NCBI GenBank assembly: GCA_003054695.1
Contig: QAZA01000050.1
Location: 186,001 to 250,000 of the forward strand
Direction: 5' to 3'
DNA length: 64,000 bases
DNA from: Verrucomicrobia bacterium LW23
Lineage (GTDB): Bacteria > Verrucomicrobiota > Verrucomicrobiia > Methylacidiphilales > UBA1321
Part shown: positions 3,001-12,582 of the stretch, one piece after another
How positions within the stretch are numbered: the stretch's first letter is position 1
Layout of the letters: each line of letters begins with the position of its first letter
Position numbers and translations under genes: made by a program
Notes under the pieces: generated by a model
Seen by the model: only the letters and a program-made list of their open reading frames with translations
What the model was told of the DNA's origin: nothing
Database searches by the model: none

Positions 3001-3757
3001 CCGGTTCGATCCGTGGCTCAGCAACCCGTTGTCGCGCAGGGTGTTCGGGATGGAGTTCGGCACGGTGCCCGCCACGGCGCGGTACGATCGCGTGCGGCAG
3101 GCGCTGGAGATGCTCGCGGCGCACCCCGCCACGGCCCGGTATGTGTGCGGCAAGCTGGCGGGGCACTACGTGGGGCTGCCGGCGCCGGCGGCGCTGGTGG
3201 ATGAGCTTACGGCGACCTACATGCGCACGGGCGGCGATATGCAGGAGGTATTGGTGACGCTCTCGCGGCACCCGGATTTCTGGGCGTCGGTGGACCGACC
3301 GCGGCTGGCAACGCCGCTGGACTTCGCGTTGCGCGCGGCTCGCAGCAGCCGGTACGATTCGCCCGGCAAGGTGCTCGGCTTCCTGCGCACCAGCGGCACG
3401 GGGCTTTTCGACCGCGCGACGCCGGACGGGTACCCGGAGACGGATGACTCGTATGCGAGCTCCAACGCGCTGTTGCAACGCTGGCGCTTTGCGGGCGACA
3501 TGCAGGGCCCGCTCTTCGACACCCTGCCCAGGGAGTTGCGCGAGATGACCACCTTTGCGGACCCGGCGGCCGAGGAGGCCTGGCTGGCGCGCGTGCTTCG
3601 CATCCAGGCCATGCGCCTGTGCGGGCGCCCGCTCTCGCCGGCGTCAAAGGACGCGACGCTGAAGGTGGCGAACGCAGTGCCGGCGGGCGATCCTCAGGCA
3701 CGGGCGCGAGCGATAGGCAGCTTTCTTTTGCAGACGCCCGAGGCCAGTTTACGTTGA
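2..3757 (+). CDS. DUF1800 family protein with Ig/CBM-like N-terminal region (5' end cut by window)
   Basis: The frame is open from base 2, so the true start probably lies upstream; the first in-window start is a GTG at 17. The last ~450 residues (from about base 2395) have the DUF1800 hallmarks: LASRFGYGPEPEQM, then RFVLWAQNHFSV, then NYAREIMELHTLGVHGGYTQ. The upstream ~780 residues look like several beta-sandwich modules, including a stretch with GTWVLPVNASRAGTYQL that resembles carbohydrate-binding or Ig-like domains. Between them (about 1072-1215) is a methionine-pair-rich linker with many MM doublets among Gly, Ala and Ser. DUF1800 proteins are abundant in Planctomycetes and Verrucomicrobia and usually sit beside a DUF1501 gene; none follows here, and the upstream neighbour is outside the window. 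The biochemical function is unknown; an exported or surface role is an inference. Confidence 0.9.
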   Translation, partial: ETRGTVGQSQVIAFAVSAAAPQKKVFDFSVQPAEAVEVLMAPTVLNGEKTGFVRIVPRRPGKCILSVGKANIALEVSPAADIERGTTPLLQLVAPLSGAQIWGQVTVGVEFFDESASKDVSGTVDLVLPGGKRYRPEVSLGTEWGPHRRFTFTIDADKLPAGPLVLAAEAILSDGRRLQSPPIPVRVIRPSTAAILKGECEDLLEGPKPKRLGENAVTPASRDRTASGGAAVINPNNNKGTWVLPVNASRAGTYQLAMRVRGDFACGTFPTLAVALDENQQPITAARLTDSEWRRVIVGRPIYLTAGEHFICVSLANSMTVFNETRNLSLDTYELVRLDDSAVRAGSGKVASEGGSPMMGGEMMSGGAMMAGDSMMSPASPKPADAMMAAQPMMAGGDAMMSKMAAEEAPPGNVGLEPPRVAFQHVFDMQPVTGPVSLRAACWWPRPEVNRAPKVTLFLNGKAVGYQYGSRPEFRLEPRDLQQGVNTVHLTAVDSQGYLISSPEQRILFAPPGPAKMTAKPVAATAVAKPVVSRLQVFTAQDDRWDEAMLSRCTTKPTGLFMDEAAFYSNGEVRLNLPEELEGEYVVTVNTRGTPCDGPPELRFRVADNAKVVPAEGSAPATAETADVLATVAVEDAKYHQKDVGKIRLSPGKKALSMAFLNDRAEKKDGKLVQDRNVWVKNVTLRSTGGVPDTAPIITVAYPDTRREVQVADADAVVAEIFAPRGIKWADLIIDGVPQELKVVRGNGFGQFYFPFSLEGLSAGRHKVRVVAEAWGGKKTESQEFTIVVSAQPLTQRTPYQRALHLASRFGYGPEPEQMAEILTRGEVSWLRTRLGEDSRSAALRAQAARVMVEYAEDRGEGQVINPVMARLLTSPNPVRTRFVLWAQNHFSVWIGRVQPPMKVDEDAAFDRLGVASFPQLLWTSATSPAMLVYLDQARSFAKKINENYAREIMELHTLGVHGGYTQADVTELANLLNGWTVADEAGTTASQAGPITRTFRFDPWLSNPLSRRVFGMEFGTVPATARYDRVRQALEMLAAHPATARYVCGKLAGHYVGLPAPAALVDELTATYMRTGGDMQEVLVTLSRHPDFWASVDRPRLATPLDFALRAARSSRYDSPGKVLGFLRTSGTGLFDRATPDGYPETDDSYASSNALLQRWRFAGDMQGPLFDTLPRELREMTTFADPAAEEAWLARVLRIQAMRLCGRPLSPASKDATLKVANAVPAGDPQARARAIGSFLLQTPEASLR

Positions 3758-3796
3758 GTAACAGGCCATAGCTATAAGAAGGGGGCCTTTTATCTA

Positions 3797-4006
3797 TTGG
3801 TTATCTTCGCGGCCATTAGTATAACCGGGCTAAAGTTTGTACTTATATCCATTGGCTTATGGAGGTCGGTAGCATTTACTATCTCCTTCATAATATGCCT
3901 TCTCTTTATCGCAGGTGTGTATAGATTGCTTGTGATGAAAGCTCCCAACGAGTGCTTTCACGTCGTTCTGTCCCATGGACTTGCGCTCGGGCACCGCGTA
4001 AGCTAG
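3797..4006 (+). CDS. possible small two-helix membrane protein
   Basis: A 69-codon frame starting at TTG, with a purine-rich AAGAAGGGGG about 12 bases upstream. The first ~48 residues contain two hydrophobic stretches (ITGLKFVLISIGLW and FTISFIICLLFIAGVY), and the tail is polar. It lies between the DUF1800 gene and the nucleotidyltransferase gene and is in the same frame as the latter, separated by a TAG at 4004-4006 and three codons. No family is recognised. It could be a chance frame; the hydrophobic pattern and the ribosome-binding-site-like sequence are the only support. Confidence 0.25.
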   Translation: MVIFAAISITGLKFVLISIGLWRSVAFTISFIICLLFIAGVYRLLVMKAPNECFHVVLSHGLALGHRVS

Positions 4007-4015
4007 CTTTCGGAG

Positions 4016-4921
4016 ATGGGCCGCATTCTCTTTCTCATCAGCGCGCTGGGGGGCTCGCACGCGTATGGGCTTTCCACTCCGGCAAGTGATGTCGATTTTC
4101 GGGGCGTGTTTTTGAATGCTGACGTGGCGACGGCGGCCGGGTTGGATACCCGAGAGCATGTGACGCGGCGCGAGCCTCGCGACGAATCGTACCACGAGTT
4201 GCGGTATTTTATGCAGATGTTGCGCAAAGGCAATACGGGAGCCCTGGAGATATTGTTTAGCGATAATGCGCACTATCGGCATCCGTTGTTTGCTTTGCTG
4301 GCACACAACAGGCAGCGCTTTATCCATACAGTTCATCTCTACAAAACGCTTAAGGGCTATTTACATAGCGAGAGGCGGCTGGCAAACGGGGAGCGGACGG
4401 GGCTGTTAGGCGCCAGGCGCAAGCAACAGATTGATCGGCTGGGTTTTAGCCCCAAAAACTTTGTGCAGATGTTTCGCCTGGCACATTGTGGCATTGCTGT
4501 GTTTGAGCGAGGGGTGTTTCCTGTGGATTTAAGGAAAGATGATCCCTCGCTTGCGGATCGGTTGCTCGCCATCAAAGCCACGCCGGAACTCTATACAAAG
4601 GCCCGGCTTAATGAGGAAGCCGACCTCTGGATTGCCCGCCTGGATGCCGCGTTTGAGCATCGCCGGTACGAGTTCACCTTTGACGAGGCGCTTGCCCACG
4701 ATGTTTGCGCCGCCATTTACGCGCCGGTAATGCAGGCATTGTATGGGCAGATTGCGGCACGCAGGGACTTTCCCCCCACGCTTCACGCCTATTCACTGCA
4801 GACGCAACTGCTTGATTTTCAGCGGGATGCGGGCTGCGTGCTTGGCAATGACGAGGCGAATGAGCCGCGTTCTGTTACGGACGCGGTATGGCCGGAGATT
4901 CCTCCGCATGAATCCCGTTGA
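4016..4921 (+). CDS. YcgL-type nucleotidyltransferase-superfamily protein
   Basis: A 301-aa protein whose N-terminus carries GSHAYGLSTPASDVDFRG, the DNA polymerase beta-type nucleotidyltransferase signature with the paired Asp residues (DVD) that would bind metal. The rest is helical and matches the pattern of predicted nucleotidyltransferases of the YcgL group (COG3541), including a repeated LHSERRLANGER-type helix. The substrate of this group is not established. An in-frame TAG sits three codons upstream of the ATG, so the start cannot be moved further upstream. It is probably a monocistronic cytoplasmic protein. Confidence 0.8.
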   Translation: MGRILFLISALGGSHAYGLSTPASDVDFRGVFLNADVATAAGLDTREHVTRREPRDESYHELRYFMQMLRKGNTGALEILFSDNAHYRHPLFALLAHNRQRFIHTVHLYKTLKGYLHSERRLANGERTGLLGARRKQQIDRLGFSPKNFVQMFRLAHCGIAVFERGVFPVDLRKDDPSLADRLLAIKATPELYTKARLNEEADLWIARLDAAFEHRRYEFTFDEALAHDVCAAIYAPVMQALYGQIAARRDFPPTLHAYSLQTQLLDFQRDAGCVLGNDEANEPRSVTDAVWPEIPPHESR

Positions 4922-5104
4922 AAGCGCTGGCATAATTGTTGCATTTGCGGCATTTTATGAGCACGGACCTACTCGGTCGGAAGGGACTGCCCGCGCGGGT
5001 GGCGGCCCTGAGCTTTATCCTTTTCCGGACTGGCGGAGGCCGTCCATCCCTGGCACCTTGCGGGCAGGCTTTCTGCTAAGGCATTGTTGTCCAGGCTTTT
5101 ATGC

Positions 5105-5650
5105 ATGAGCGTTTCCTCAGATCATTTGCTGTGGTGGGTGTTACCCGGTAAGCTGGCGGGCATGCGCGTGCCTAGTCTGGACCGCACGCGGTACACCACG
5201 CACATTCACGCGGAGCCCGAATCGCTGCCGGACGATCTGGCGCATTTGTGGCGCGTGGGCATTCGCGCCGTTGTCAGCCTGCTTAACAGCGCGGGCGACG
5301 GGCCCGTATTTACCCGCGCGGGGATGGAGTATCTCTCTCTGCCTGTGCGGGATGGAGGTGCGCCGACCACTCACCAGGCGCTGCGCTTTTTGCATTTTAC
5401 CGACGAAGCGTTGCGCAACTCCAAGCCCGTTGCGGTGCATTGCGCCGCGGGGCGGGGCCGCACGGGCACGATGCTGGCGCTCTATCTCATCCATCATTTT
5501 CAGCTGGATCGCGCCGAGACCGCCGTGGAGGCGGTGCGCAAAGTTCGCCCCAGCGCTATCGAGACGTATACACAAGAGACTTTCCTGCAAGACTTTGCGA
5601 CGAATTACCCGCAGCTGATGGCCTCCTATCCCGGCGGGGGGCCAGGGTAA
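5105..5650 (+). CDS. dual-specificity/tyrosine phosphatase-like protein
   Basis: The protein contains HCAAGRGRTG, the C(x)5R phosphatase P-loop with catalytic Cys and Arg. An upstream WWVLPGKLAG stretch and the loop RDGGAPTT supply the usual N-terminal WxxPGKLAG-type motif and the general-acid Asp region. The total of 181 residues is normal for small cysteine phosphatases of the PTP/DSP fold. I chose the ATG at 5105 because it gives a compact N-terminus just before the conserved WVLPGKLAG; a TTG at 5084 is the alternative. Substrates could be phosphoproteins, phosphoinositides or nucleotides, and the sequence does not decide. No operon partner is evident. Confidence 0.87.
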   Translation: MSVSSDHLLWWVLPGKLAGMRVPSLDRTRYTTHIHAEPESLPDDLAHLWRVGIRAVVSLLNSAGDGPVFTRAGMEYLSLPVRDGGAPTTHQALRFLHFTDEALRNSKPVAVHCAAGRGRTGTMLALYLIHHFQLDRAETAVEAVRKVRPSAIETYTQETFLQDFATNYPQLMASYPGGGPG

Positions 5651-6838: not shown

Positions 6839-8659
<1,821 letters not shown>

Positions 8660-8707: not shown

Positions 8708-8941
8708 ATGGAATCTTTTATCTTATCATACTTCTTATGGTTCTGGATCATTATCCCGATCATTGTGATCTTCGGCACCATCCTCTGGCTCTGGATGCTG
8801 ATTGACTGTATATCTAACGAGCCGTCCACAGGTAACGACAAAGTGGTGTGGCTGCTGGTGATTCTCCTTTTGCAAGGCTTTGGTGCTTTACTTTATTTCT
8901 TCCTCCGCCGGCCGCAACGGAGGCAGATGTTTGGAAAATAG
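8708..8941 (+). CDS. PLDc_N-like small membrane protein, paralogue 1
   Basis: A 77-aa protein with a first transmembrane helix, then the WMLIDCISNEPSTGNDKVVW motif, a second helix and the basic tail RRPQRRQMFGK. This is the phospholipase D N-terminal (PLDc_N) two-helix domain occurring alone, without a nuclease or lipase domain. A good Shine-Dalgarno (GAGGAAG) lies just upstream of the ATG. It follows the GH1-AraC gene by 48 bases and is the first of three paralogues in 2.2 kb. The function of stand-alone PLDc_N proteins is unknown. Confidence 0.85.
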   Translation: MESFILSYFLWFWIIIPIIVIFGTILWLWMLIDCISNEPSTGNDKVVWLLVILLLQGFGALLYFFLRRPQRRQMFGK

Positions 8942-8945
8942 ACCT

Positions 8946-9213
8946 TAGAGGCTGTCGACATTTCCGTGGATCCCCTTGGCGAAACTTTCCGTCCTTGGCG
9001 ATACTATCTGCCTTGGAGCTACGGACCTTCAGATAACATCGCCAAGGGCGGAAAGTTTCGCCAAGAGGGATGCTTCCACGATGTTCAACATTTCTTACGT
9101 TCTCCACTTTATCCCGTATTGCAGTACGGCTTCACAGATGTCTCGCTATAAGGGGGATATAAGCCTCTACGCAGGGGATAAAGGGGGAGGAGGCCAAATG
9201 TCGACAGCCTCTA
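8946..9213 (+). mobile_element. MITE-like element with 18-bp perfect terminal inverted repeats
   Basis: TAGAGGCTGTCGACATTT at 8946-8963 is repeated as an exact reverse complement at 9196-9213. Each end carries TA, consistent with a TA target duplication around a 264-bp element, as seen for IS630/Tc1-mariner and some IS5-group insertions. No transposase frame is present, so it would be non-autonomous. A large internal hairpin occupies the left half. It lies between two PLDc_N paralogues. The strand is arbitrary. Confidence 0.75.
8965..9076. repeat. nested long hairpin inside the MITE-like element
   Basis: The arm at 8971-9001 (CCTTGGCGAAACTTTCCG and following) pairs with 9039-9070 almost without mismatch, and CGTGGA at 8965-8970 pairs with TCCACG just outside the right arm. 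The loop is about 37 bases. Transcribed, it would form a stem of roughly 36 pairs. Confidence 0.8.
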
Positions 9214-9273
9214 GACCAATTCGCACACATGCTGTTATTATAAAGCATCAAAGCCGACCGATATAATAATACG

Positions 9274-9522
9274 ATGGAACTCATCATCTTTTTGTTCGCT
9301 TTCAGCTTCTTTTGCTTCATGTGGGTTATCATTCCCACCATTATTATCGTCGGGCTGGTACTTACGGTATGGATGCTGATTGACTGCATTACCAATGAAC
9401 CCGCGGAGGGCAATGACAAGATAGTATGGACGATCCTGATTATCCTTTTGCAAGGCGGCATCGGCGCTCTGCTCTATTACTTCGTCCGCAGGCCGCAGCG
9501 CATTCGGCAATTCGGCAAATAG
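9274..9522 (+). CDS. PLDc_N-like small membrane protein, paralogue 2
   Basis: An 82-aa protein with the same layout as its neighbour at 8708: hydrophobic helix, WMLIDCITNEPAEGNDKIVW, second helix, and basic tail RRPQRIRQFGK. Identity between the two is high in the central motif and tail and lower in the helices, so this is an older duplication than the MITE insertion between them. No partner domain is present. The function is unknown; a two-helix membrane hairpin is a safe structural reading. Confidence 0.85.
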   Translation: MELIIFLFAFSFFCFMWVIIPTIIIVGLVLTVWMLIDCITNEPAEGNDKIVWTILIILLQGGIGALLYYFVRRPQRIRQFGK

Positions 9523-9633
9523 CAACCTGCTCCATTCACACCTGTATTGTCACAGGGATTGCAGGGAGCGCGAAGGCCTCACTCCGCGCTTGCATCTCCG
9601 GCGCCACGCGTCCAACCTGTCCGCACATCCGCC

Positions 9634-10557
9634 ATGCACGCTCCCGCTCCTGCCACTGAAGACGCGCCCGCGCCGTCCCCCTCCGCGTCCCCGGGCCACG
9701 ACGCCGCCGCGATTGAAGCTGCCTACGCGCGCTGCACGCACCTGGCCACCACGCACTACGAGAATTTCCCCGTCGGCCGCCTGGTGCCCGCCCGCCTGCG
9801 CAAGCACGTGCACGCCGTCTACGCCTTTGCCCGCCACGCGGACGATCTGGCCGACGAAGGCTATGAACATGAAGGACTTGCGGAGAAAAAGCGGCTGGCC
9901 GCACTTAACGACTGGGAGGCGCAACTCCTCCAGCCCCGCGGTACCGCCACGGAGCCCATCTTTATTGCCCTGCACGAGACGATGCACGAGCTGGACCTGC
10001 CCGTCTCGCTCTTTACGGACCTGCTCTCCGCCTTCAAGCAGGACGTGGTGAAGCGCCGCTACGCCAACTTTGACGACGTGCTGGACTACTGCCGCCGCAG
10101 CGCCAACCCCATCGGGCGCCTGGTTCTGCTGCTGCACGGCTACCGCGATCCCCACCTGCACGAGCTCTCCGACCACATCTGCACCGCCCTGCAGCTTGCC
10201 AACTTTTGGCAGGATATCTCCGTCGACCTCATCAAAGATCGCATCTACCTGCCGCAGAACGACATGGAGTACTATGGCGTGACCGAGGAAGACCTCTTCG
10301 AAAAGCGCGCCACCGGCCCCTTCCGCCAGCTGGTGCAGTTTCAGGTCGATCGCACCCAGCACATCTTTAACGCCGGCGAGCCTCTGGTCGGCCACCTGAA
10401 ATCCGGACTGCGCTGGGAGATCCGCCTTACCTGGATGGGCGGCACCCGCATCCTCCAGATGATTCGCGACCAGAAGTTCGACACCCTCTCCCGCCGCCCC
10501 AAAATCACCAAATGGCAAATGCTGCCCATGCTTGTCAAAGCGTGGGTGTTTCGTTGA
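9634..10557 (+). CDS. hpnC: squalene/phytoene synthase family protein, HpnC-like
   Basis: The first Asp-rich motif HADDLADE and the second, QLANFWQDISVD, are the two diphosphate/Mg-binding motifs of trans-isoprenyl head-to-head synthases. YENFPVGRLVPARLRKHVHAVYAFAR at the N-terminus, given here only as family context, is of the HpnC type rather than plant CrtB. HpnC works with HpnD and HpnE to make squalene for hopanoids; neither partner lies in the window, so the product (squalene intermediate or a carotenoid precursor) is inferred. I chose the ATG at 9634; a TTG at 9547 would add a low-complexity Pro/Ala leader. The gene sits between PLDc_N paralogues 2 and 3, and paralogue 3 follows 59 bases downstream, possibly on the same transcript. 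Confidence 0.85.
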   Translation: MHAPAPATEDAPAPSPSASPGHDAAAIEAAYARCTHLATTHYENFPVGRLVPARLRKHVHAVYAFARHADDLADEGYEHEGLAEKKRLAALNDWEAQLLQPRGTATEPIFIALHETMHELDLPVSLFTDLLSAFKQDVVKRRYANFDDVLDYCRRSANPIGRLVLLLHGYRDPHLHELSDHICTALQLANFWQDISVDLIKDRIYLPQNDMEYYGVTEEDLFEKRATGPFRQLVQFQVDRTQHIFNAGEPLVGHLKSGLRWEIRLTWMGGTRILQMIRDQKFDTLSRRPKITKWQMLPMLVKAWVFR

Positions 10558-10616
10558 TTCCGTCGATATCCCTGATACTGAACACTTTAGCCAATTCACC
10601 AACCGCCCCCCTCGCC

Positions 10617-10883
10617 ATGGAAATATTCGCCACAGCTCCCGCCCTTCTCGCGGCTATCCCCGCCAGCGTGGAGCTGGCGATTAACCTCACGGTACTCTCG
10701 CTGGTGCTGCTCAGCTCCCTCCTCTGGGGCTGGATGCTCATCGATTGCCTGACCAAAGAGCCGCAGACAGAAAGCAACGAAAAGGTGCTCTGGATCGTCA
10801 TTATCGTCCTGGCGGGCTGCTTTGGCGCACTGGCGTACCTTATTATCCGCCGGCCGCAACGCATACGTCAGCATGGCAAGTAG
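10617..10883 (+). CDS. PLDc_N-like small membrane protein, paralogue 3
   Basis: An 88-aa protein: hydrophobic helix, WMLIDCLTKEPQTESNEKVL, second helix, and tail RRPQRIRQHGK. It is clearly the same family as the proteins at 8708 and 9274, but more divergent in the acidic loop. The ATG at 10617 is preferred; an upstream ATG at 10512 would overlap the hpnC-like gene. Proximity to the isoprenoid synthase suggests co-transcription. Function unknown. Confidence 0.8.
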   Translation: MEIFATAPALLAAIPASVELAINLTVLSLVLLSSLLWGWMLIDCLTKEPQTESNEKVLWIVIIVLAGCFGALAYLIIRRPQRIRQHGK

Positions 10884-10946: not shown

Positions 10947-10974
10947 TTGACACATCGCGCGGGCGCCCTAGAAT
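10947..10974 (+). promoter_or_regulatory. sigma70-type promoter of serA
   Basis: TTGACA (10947-10952), a 16-base spacer and TAGAAT (10969-10974) form a near-consensus promoter. The expected transcription start, about 6-7 bases after the -10, falls near 10981, leaving only about 6 bases before the serA ATG at 10987. Confidence 0.7.
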
Positions 10975-10986
10975 GGCCCCTTCCTT

Positions 10987-12582
10987 ATGAGCGATATTTT
11001 TCGGGTTTTGGCCCTCGACGGTGTTTCACCCACGGGCCTTTCGATGCTGGAGAGCACCGGGCGCATCTCGGTAACCGCCCAAAAAGGCGGCCTTAAAGAG
11101 CCAGAACTGCTCGCCGTCATTGCTGACTATGATGCCATCATTGTACGCAGCCAGACAAAGGTAACAGCCAAGGCTTTCGCCGCGGCGCCCCGCCTTAAAG
11201 TGGTGGGCCGCGCCGGCGTTGGCTACGACAACATCGACGTCGAGGCCGCCTCGGAGCGCGGCGTGGTGGTGATGAACACCCCCGGCGGCAACACCATCTC
11301 CACAGCGGAGCACACTTTCTCCCTCCTCCTCGCCCTCGCGCGATTCATCCCCCAGGCGCATGCCTCCGTGCAGGCCGGGCAGTGGGATCGCAAATCCTTC
11401 CAGGGCGTGGAGTTATGCAACAAAACACTCGGCATCATCGGCATGGGCCGCATCGGTGGCGAGGTCGCGCGCCGCGCCATCGGTTTCGGCATGCGCGTGA
11501 TGGCCTATGACCCGTACCTGGCCCACAGCCGCGCCCGCTCCATGCAGGTGGAGCTGGTCGACAACCTCGGGCCGCTGCTCGCCCAGTCGGATTTCATTAC
11601 CGTGCACATGCCGATGACGCCCGAAACCAAGGGCATCCTGAACGCCACGACCATCGCCCAATGCAAAAAGGGCGTGCGCCTCGTCAACTGCGCCCGCGGC
11701 GGCCTTATTGACGAAGCCGCACTTATCGAAGCCGTCAAGTCCGGCCACGTCGCCGGCGTCGCGCTCGACGTCTTCGAAACCGAGCCCCCGCCCGCCGACT
11801 TTGGCCTGCGCGGCCTGCCCAACGTCGTCTTTACCCCCCACCTGGGCGCCAGTACGGCGGAAGCGCAGGAAAGCGTCGGCATTGAAGTAGCCGAGCAGAT
11901 TCGCGACTACCTCGTCGACGGCGTCATCCGCAATGCCGTCAACGTGCCGAACGTCGACGTACGCGCGCTGGCTGTTCTTCGTCCGTATCTCTCTCTGGGC
12001 GAGAGACTTGGGCAGCTCATCAGCCAGCTGGCCCCGCCGCGGATCGATACGCTCACCGTCAACTACAGCGGCAAAGTGCGCGACTTCGACACCGGCCCGG
12101 TCACCCGCGCCGTCCTCCGCGGCCTGCTGCTGCACGCCGTAGGCCCCGTCAACGACGTCAGCGCCCCGCGCAAAGCTAAAGGCCTGGGCATCAACTACTC
12201 CGAGACGAAACTGAGCGAAGAAGGCGACTTTACCGAGCTCATCAGCGTCCAGGTCACCGCCGGCGACGTTAAACACGAAGTGGCGGGCACCTTCTTCGGC
12301 ACCCAGCCCCGCATCGTGCGCATCGACGGCCACACTCTCGACGCCAACCCCAACGGCATCCTCTTCATCATGGAAAACCGCGACCGCCCCGGCATTGTCG
12401 GCTGGATCGGCACCCTCCTCGGCAAACACCACATCAACATCGCCACCATGGCCCTCAGCCGCACCGAGCCCGGCAGCCGCGCCCTCAGCGTGCTTAACCT
12501 GGACTCCGCCCCCGGCGAAGAGGTGCTGAAGGAAATTACGGCCGATGAGGATATCTACTCGGTAAAAGTGGTTAAGCTGTAA
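10987..12582 (+). CDS. serA: D-3-phosphoglycerate dehydrogenase
   Basis: A 531-aa protein of the long SerA type, first step of the phosphorylated serine pathway (3-phosphoglycerate to phosphohydroxypyruvate, NAD). The Rossmann motif GIIGMGRIGGEVARRA is present, with the catalytic Arg in CARGGLIDE, Glu in VFETEPP and His in TPHLGAST. After residue ~320 comes the intervening (ASB-like) domain, and a C-terminal ACT domain begins near NRDRPGIVGWIGTLL, the serine-sensing module in many homologues. A strong promoter lies immediately upstream with almost no leader, and an intrinsic terminator follows, so it is probably a single-gene transcript. Confidence 0.96.
   Translation: MSDIFRVLALDGVSPTGLSMLESTGRISVTAQKGGLKEPELLAVIADYDAIIVRSQTKVTAKAFAAAPRLKVVGRAGVGYDNIDVEAASERGVVVMNTPGGNTISTAEHTFSLLLALARFIPQAHASVQAGQWDRKSFQGVELCNKTLGIIGMGRIGGEVARRAIGFGMRVMAYDPYLAHSRARSMQVELVDNLGPLLAQSDFITVHMPMTPETKGILNATTIAQCKKGVRLVNCARGGLIDEAALIEAVKSGHVAGVALDVFETEPPPADFGLRGLPNVVFTPHLGASTAEAQESVGIEVAEQIRDYLVDGVIRNAVNVPNVDVRALAVLRPYLSLGERLGQLISQLAPPRIDTLTVNYSGKVRDFDTGPVTRAVLRGLLLHAVGPVNDVSAPRKAKGLGINYSETKLSEEGDFTELISVQVTAGDVKHEVAGTFFGTQPRIVRIDGHTLDANPNGILFIMENRDRPGIVGWIGTLLGKHHINIATMALSRTEPGSRALSVLNLDSAPGEEVLKEITADEDIYSVKVVKL

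Follow-up and report, generated by a model that had tools for sequence, protein, structure and literature searches.

Three stand-alone PLDc_N mini-proteins around an hpnC gene in Verrucomicrobia bacterium LW23 have relatives in flotillin operons

Several membrane-associated gene neighbourhoods bear on the locus described here and, as far as the accessible portions of the cited papers go, these include NfeD-SPFH operons such as yuaF-yuaG in B. subtilis and yqiJ-yqiK in E. coli (PMC2636767), band-7/flotillin, YqiJ/YuaF and PspC neighbourhoods (PMC11237479), CesT/Tir chaperones reported with PspA and band-7 operons (PMC11237479), and PspA noted together with band 7, FloT and NfeD (PMC9239133). 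Isoprenoids and flotillin domains have been reviewed together (PMC8144471, likewise in its accessible part). The term "PLDc" occurs 0 times in the accessible text of PMC11237479. Stand-alone PLDc_N mini-proteins span several phyla, and our literature search, which was mostly without subscription papers, returned no paper assigning them a function and no report of them with flotillin.

Three such proteins (P1–P3) are encoded in the window, by which we mean the whole 64-kb stretch of DNA analyzed. All three exceed the curated Pfam cut-off for PLDc_N (PF13396, 23.3 bits), but each is a stand-alone product of 77–88 aa rather than the N-terminal domain of a phospholipase-D-type enzyme. Relatives of P1–P3 from the same class lie directly behind NfeD-like and flotillin genes, as in the flotillin-NfeD (SPFH2) operons, whereas the window itself gave no match to flotillin or NfeD queries by tblastn, and P1–P3 are not beside either gene. 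PspC (PF04024) is a small membrane protein like the mini-proteins and can hold the slot downstream of flotillin (82.3 bits at locus L224), but it is a different family and was not among the Pfam matches of P1–P3. Compared with the hpnC-hpnD-hpnE squalene synthesis genes, the window holds a gene whose product passes the HpnC equivalog cut-off, but which is split from the hpnD-like gene. The features of the locus are as follows:

8708–8941, forward strand: P1, a 77-aa PLDc_N mini-protein, predicted two-helix hairpin (PF13396, 50.5 bits; AlphaFold2)
8946–9213, no strand: palindromic repeat, MITE-like; its 18-nt terminal inverted repeats are perfect, and a 39-nt inverted repeat lies inside
9274–9522, forward strand: P2, an 82-aa PLDc_N mini-protein, sister of P1 (PF13396, 37.2 bits; tree support 100/94)
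9634–10557, forward strand: hpnC, SQS_PSY family, HpnC equivalog (NCBIfam TIGR03464, 323 bits against a cut-off of 250.45)
10617–10883, forward strand: P3, a PLDc_N mini-protein of 88 aa whose start was moved from 10512 by alignment (PF13396, 37.8 bits)
10947–10974, forward strand: promoter-like site before serA, TTGACA-16-TAGAAT, 11 of 12 positions (consensus match only)
10987–12582, forward strand: serA, downstream of P3

P2, hpnC and P3 are co-directional, with gaps of 111 bp (P2-hpnC) and 59 bp (hpnC-P3), and the promoter-like site, as a consensus match, indicates that serA may form its own transcription unit. The presence of three stand-alone PLDc_N proteins around an HpnC-type synthase, as put forward in a preliminary description of this DNA, is thus borne out by the profile scores, and the WMLIDC and RRPQR motifs it pointed to are found in P1, P2 and P3. 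The listed open reading frame for P3 begins at 10512, a start we rejected since the longer frame overlaps hpnC; the ATG at 10617 gives an N-terminus of "MEIF...", in line with P1 and P2, which likewise begin with "ME", and is most likely the start of P3. The G+C content is 46% in P1, 48% in P2, 59% in P3 and 64% in hpnC. The genome (6.6 Mb in 56 contigs) has four PLDc_N matches in all, one of them on another contig, and given that the other three lie in this one cluster, the clustering is not due to chance.

The two-helix module described earlier for these proteins agrees with the AlphaFold2 model of P1 (computed with 19 relatives), a two-helix hairpin with a mean pLDDT of 94.3 and helices at residues 2–37 and 44–75, the second being interrupted by a single residue at 56. 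Two hydrophobic stretches occur in each of P1, P2 and P3, and membrane topology is given here as a prediction only. P1 and P2 are laid out as a helix, a short conserved loop (NEP..GNDK), a second helix and a basic RRPQR tail. In an alignment of 22 homologues there are five invariant and ten nearly invariant columns, and the conserved columns include five residues of WMLIDC (W, M, L, D and C), four of the loop (E, G, N and K) and two tail arginines. Basic segments of membrane proteins tend to be placed on the cytoplasmic side by the positive-inside rule, and the P1–P3 loop would accordingly face outward with the tail in the cytoplasm. A PDB sequence search returned a single match (E 0.19), which we took as chance.

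The Pfam alignments of P1–P3 span 41–42 of the 42 positions of PF13396, and the frames stop nine residues past the domain, leaving the PLD catalytic domains of cardiolipin synthase absent. The proteins could in principle be detached N-terminal modules of cardiolipin synthase, acting in trans on a synthase that lacks the module: all four PLDc_N matches in the genome fall in frames of 80–170 aa with no PLDc_N-bearing synthase seen, matches in four other genomes (G001, G007, G012 and G018) sit in frames of 480–532 aa, and P1 weakly matches the bac_cardiolipin model (E 0.086). That match, however, scores 11.8 bits, far under the NCBIfam cut-off of 290, and the mini-proteins carry a loop and tail signature of their own that is common to stand-alone homologues in several phyla, such that we regard this as the least probable of the readings considered here.

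The local triplication proposed in the preliminary description is borne out in part. P1 and P2 are 62% identical and form sisters in the trees (support 88/91 with 74 rows; 100/94 with 69 rows, L119, L120, L127, L194 and L205 being omitted due to their long branches), while the identity of P3 to P1 is 43%, indicating that these are not three equal copies. In the 74-row tree, P3 groups instead with a Planctomycetota protein (97/75); the best 69-row tree also places P3 apart from P1 and P2, although the AU test does not reject a single clade of all three there (p 0.209). Dosage expansion, also suggested earlier, similarly fits P1 and P2 and leaves P3 outside. Tandem sets of mini-genes also occur elsewhere. 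A1-like mini-protein matches were found in 39 of 286 genomes of the class, and in six of these (G000, G125, G159, G204, G211 and G264) at least two copies lie within 1 kb of each other, as they do at three of 28 named loci (L056, L057 and L058). The PLDc_N proteins of a genus of the same family (g2) were set aside, as they fall into another subfamily (seven genomes, grouping with L114 in one clade); at one of their loci (L117), the gene adjoins apaG and a phosphomethylpyrimidine kinase gene.

The 268-bp palindromic element that separates P1 from P2 was absent from the preliminary description. It folds far better than shuffled versions of itself (z −14.5), and BLAST returned at least 105 matches in the same genome (40 of 156 candidates scored). 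Its terminal repeat, allowing up to two mismatches, occurs 76 + 75 = 151 times in the genome versus 0 + 0 for a backwards control. At another locus (L207), the same ends flank a frame that matches DDE_Tnp_1 (39.3 bits) over its readable C-terminal part. Six contig ends were read, each with the terminal repeat ~45 bp from the end; five (L210, L211, L213, L214 and L215) begin with letters from the end of the L207 frame and one (L212) with letters from its opposite end, indicating that the contigs break inside copies of such an element. Given the copies in the genome and the ends shared with the L207 frame, the window repeat is a mobile, MITE-like element, probably moved by a resident DDE transposase, and the TA with which its ends start and finish may represent a target duplication. 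The presence of this element within the cluster, and the appearance of P1 and P2 as a lineage-specific duplicate, would suit a view of P1–P3 as neutral leftovers of local duplication that lack any specific role. Each of the three frames, though, is open and retains most of the invariant and nearly invariant residues of the family, which makes this view very improbable.

HpnC-type matches were present in all 12 genomes of the family (this one included), 10 of them over the equivalog cut-off. At 13 of 14 hpnC loci in relatives, an hpnD-like match lies directly 3′ of hpnC, and at the remaining locus (L132) the contig ends there. In the present genome, hpnC and the hpnD-like match are on separate contigs (C50 and C45, respectively), and the hpnC-hpnD adjacency usual in the order is absent. 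Searching with the window HpnC by tblastn across 80 other PLDc_N loci (28 named, 19 from the same genome, family and order, and 33 from the class; flanks mostly 6–10 kb per side, shorter at contig ends) gave one match (L124, from a relative in the order). The fragment at this locus (3312–3884) covers only residues 116–307 of the window HpnC and lies ~350 bp from, and divergent to, a PLDc_N gene whose match is 24.7 bits and which lacks the WMLIDC signature. A second, full hpnC is present on another contig of the same genome, and the L124 piece is either a broken gene or the product of a mixed assembly.

These counts bear on the link to isoprenoid-lipid synthesis drawn in the preliminary description, for which conserved synteny of PLDc_N and isoprenoid genes in relatives was checked and not found. 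A cassette in which P1–P3 serve squalene- or hopanoid-containing membranes alongside HpnC, combining lipid synthesis with a scaffold, would suit the close co-directional spacing of P2, hpnC and P3, the divergent hpnC fragment beside the distant PLDc_N gene of L124, and the tie of flotillin microdomains elsewhere in bacteria to polyisoprenoids (accessible part of PMC8144471). We nevertheless hold it to be quite unlikely, as just 1 of 80 other PLDc_N loci has hpnC nearby, same-family relatives keep hpnC paired with hpnD and away from PLDc_N, and the L124 genome has its second, full hpnC elsewhere. The hpnC neighbourhood alone looks like ordinary genome rearrangement and the adjacency like an accident. 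We do not claim capture of hpnC via recombination between element copies: the copy located ~3 kb away from the hpnD-like gene is weak evidence given the 151 terminal-repeat matches genome-wide.

An all-against-all comparison of neighbours at 31 loci and the window revealed a shared gene set at seven loci (L063, L173, L174, L176, L179, L184 and L186). The order NfeD-like gene, flotillin gene, PLDc_N mini-gene, Pro_CA-like gene is seen at L173, L174, L179, L184 and L186, and at L063 with one extra open reading frame between the last two; tblastn added the flotillin/NfeD pair at L189, L191 and L193. In L174, the flotillin scores 108.2 bits for Band_7 and 31.9 bits for Flot, the carbonic-anhydrase-like protein 38.2 bits, and the NfeD-like protein 20.4 bits, which is below its cut-off. 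The mini-proteins of L173 and L174 carry NEPS.GNDK and RRP.R, nearly the same signature as P1 and P2.

As PF15975 (16 of 286 class genomes at 1e-8) was too strict for this type of flotillin, we used a profile of seven linked flotillins (A4-type), which identified 33 of 286 genomes at E 1e-100. The L176 flotillin was left out of the profile, being a different type (only 25% identical to its first row), and its genome (G209) is outside the counts that follow. Ten genomes have both an A1-like mini-protein and an A4-type flotillin (G077, G097, G105, G151, G159, G200, G204, G211, G239 and G273), and in eight of them (G077 and G200 being the exceptions) both genes are on one contig, 42–2776 bp apart, across six family codes. 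By simple arithmetic, two given genes would fall within 3 kb of each other in a 4–5 Mb genome with a chance of ~1/700. The profile may lean toward linked flotillins, as rows chosen for their linkage came from six of these eight genomes (G097, G105, G151, G204, G239 and G273); the other two (G159 and G211) belong to one genus. Approached from the flotillin side, a broad mini-protein profile matched at 7 of 30 loci with flanks of up to 1.5 kb (one truncated, L242), versus 0 matches to shuffled open reading frames; a 14-bit match in L224 was left out of this count, being PspC by Pfam. By eye, a Pro_CA-like start (MRLFEAI and similar) follows the A4-type flotillin in many loci, with or without a mini-protein. 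We also noted a putative PspC-like open reading frame in the slot downstream of flotillin at L237.

The presence of relatives inside flotillin operons suggests a role in organizing or protecting the cell membrane, and on this analogy P1–P3, predicted inner-membrane hairpins, may act as accessory subunits of flotillin/NfeD-type membrane-organizing or envelope-stress assemblies. We place this reading somewhat short of an even chance, given that no A4-type flotillin is present in 29 of the 39 class genomes that carry an A1-like mini-protein (the genome of the window included), that the flotillin of this genome is of another type, on C45, with no PLDc_N neighbour, and that many mini-proteins adjoin unrelated genes (IF3, signal peptidase, SufE, ApaG). 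Conversely, 23 of 33 genomes with an A4-type flotillin have no A1-like match. The membrane-scaffold idea of the preliminary description is favored indirectly by the operons of relatives. An accessory subunit of this kind would have its hairpin buried in the inner membrane with the loop outside, and its basic tail would lie at the cytoplasmic surface, binding either anionic lipid or the SPFH ring; hpnC would have become a neighbour of P1–P3 in this lineage after leaving its usual place before hpnD.

Small PLDc_N proteins are also known from other settings, such as YxlE in the sigY operon of Bacillus subtilis, and P1–P3 may instead be YxlE-like envelope-stress or transporter-linked regulators with no tie to flotillin. 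B. subtilis was among the control genomes matching PF13396 (a genome-level match), and four actinobacterial loci (L069, L072, L073 and L076) share two same-strand upstream open reading frames of 129–142 and 308–326 aa. No sigma factor, ABC transporter or PspC was among the neighbours scanned at the locus, however, and we judge this alternative unlikely. A bolder extension of the flotillin-accessory reading, which we consider a long shot, sees in the PLDc_N mini-proteins a general partner, in the form of a small hairpin, for bacterial membrane-domain systems, with PspC as an interchangeable alternative behind flotillin; the cluster would have captured hpnC in this lineage, coupling a raft hairpin to a local supply of squalene or hopanoids in one transcription unit. 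The linkage to flotillin makes it testable whether a small hairpin of this kind modulates SPFH membrane domains.

Within positions 7429–11630 of L109, the fourth and only PLDc_N mini-gene of this genome outside the cluster lies downstream of a FecR-domain open reading frame and two frames ahead of one encoding a CesT-like chaperone. Upstream of P1 in the window, a family-1 beta-glucosidase (6893–8659, 491.6 bits) is fused in-frame to an AraC-type DNA-binding domain at its C-terminus (73.2 bits). It contains TLNEP and ITENG, which we take to be motifs with catalytic meaning in this enzyme family, and the product is possibly an enzyme doubling as a sugar-sensing regulator. Further upstream are an RlaP-type nucleotidyltransferase (4016–4921, 49 bits) and, close by, a Tc-R-P-type DSP-PTPase phosphatase (5084–5650, 78.9 bits).
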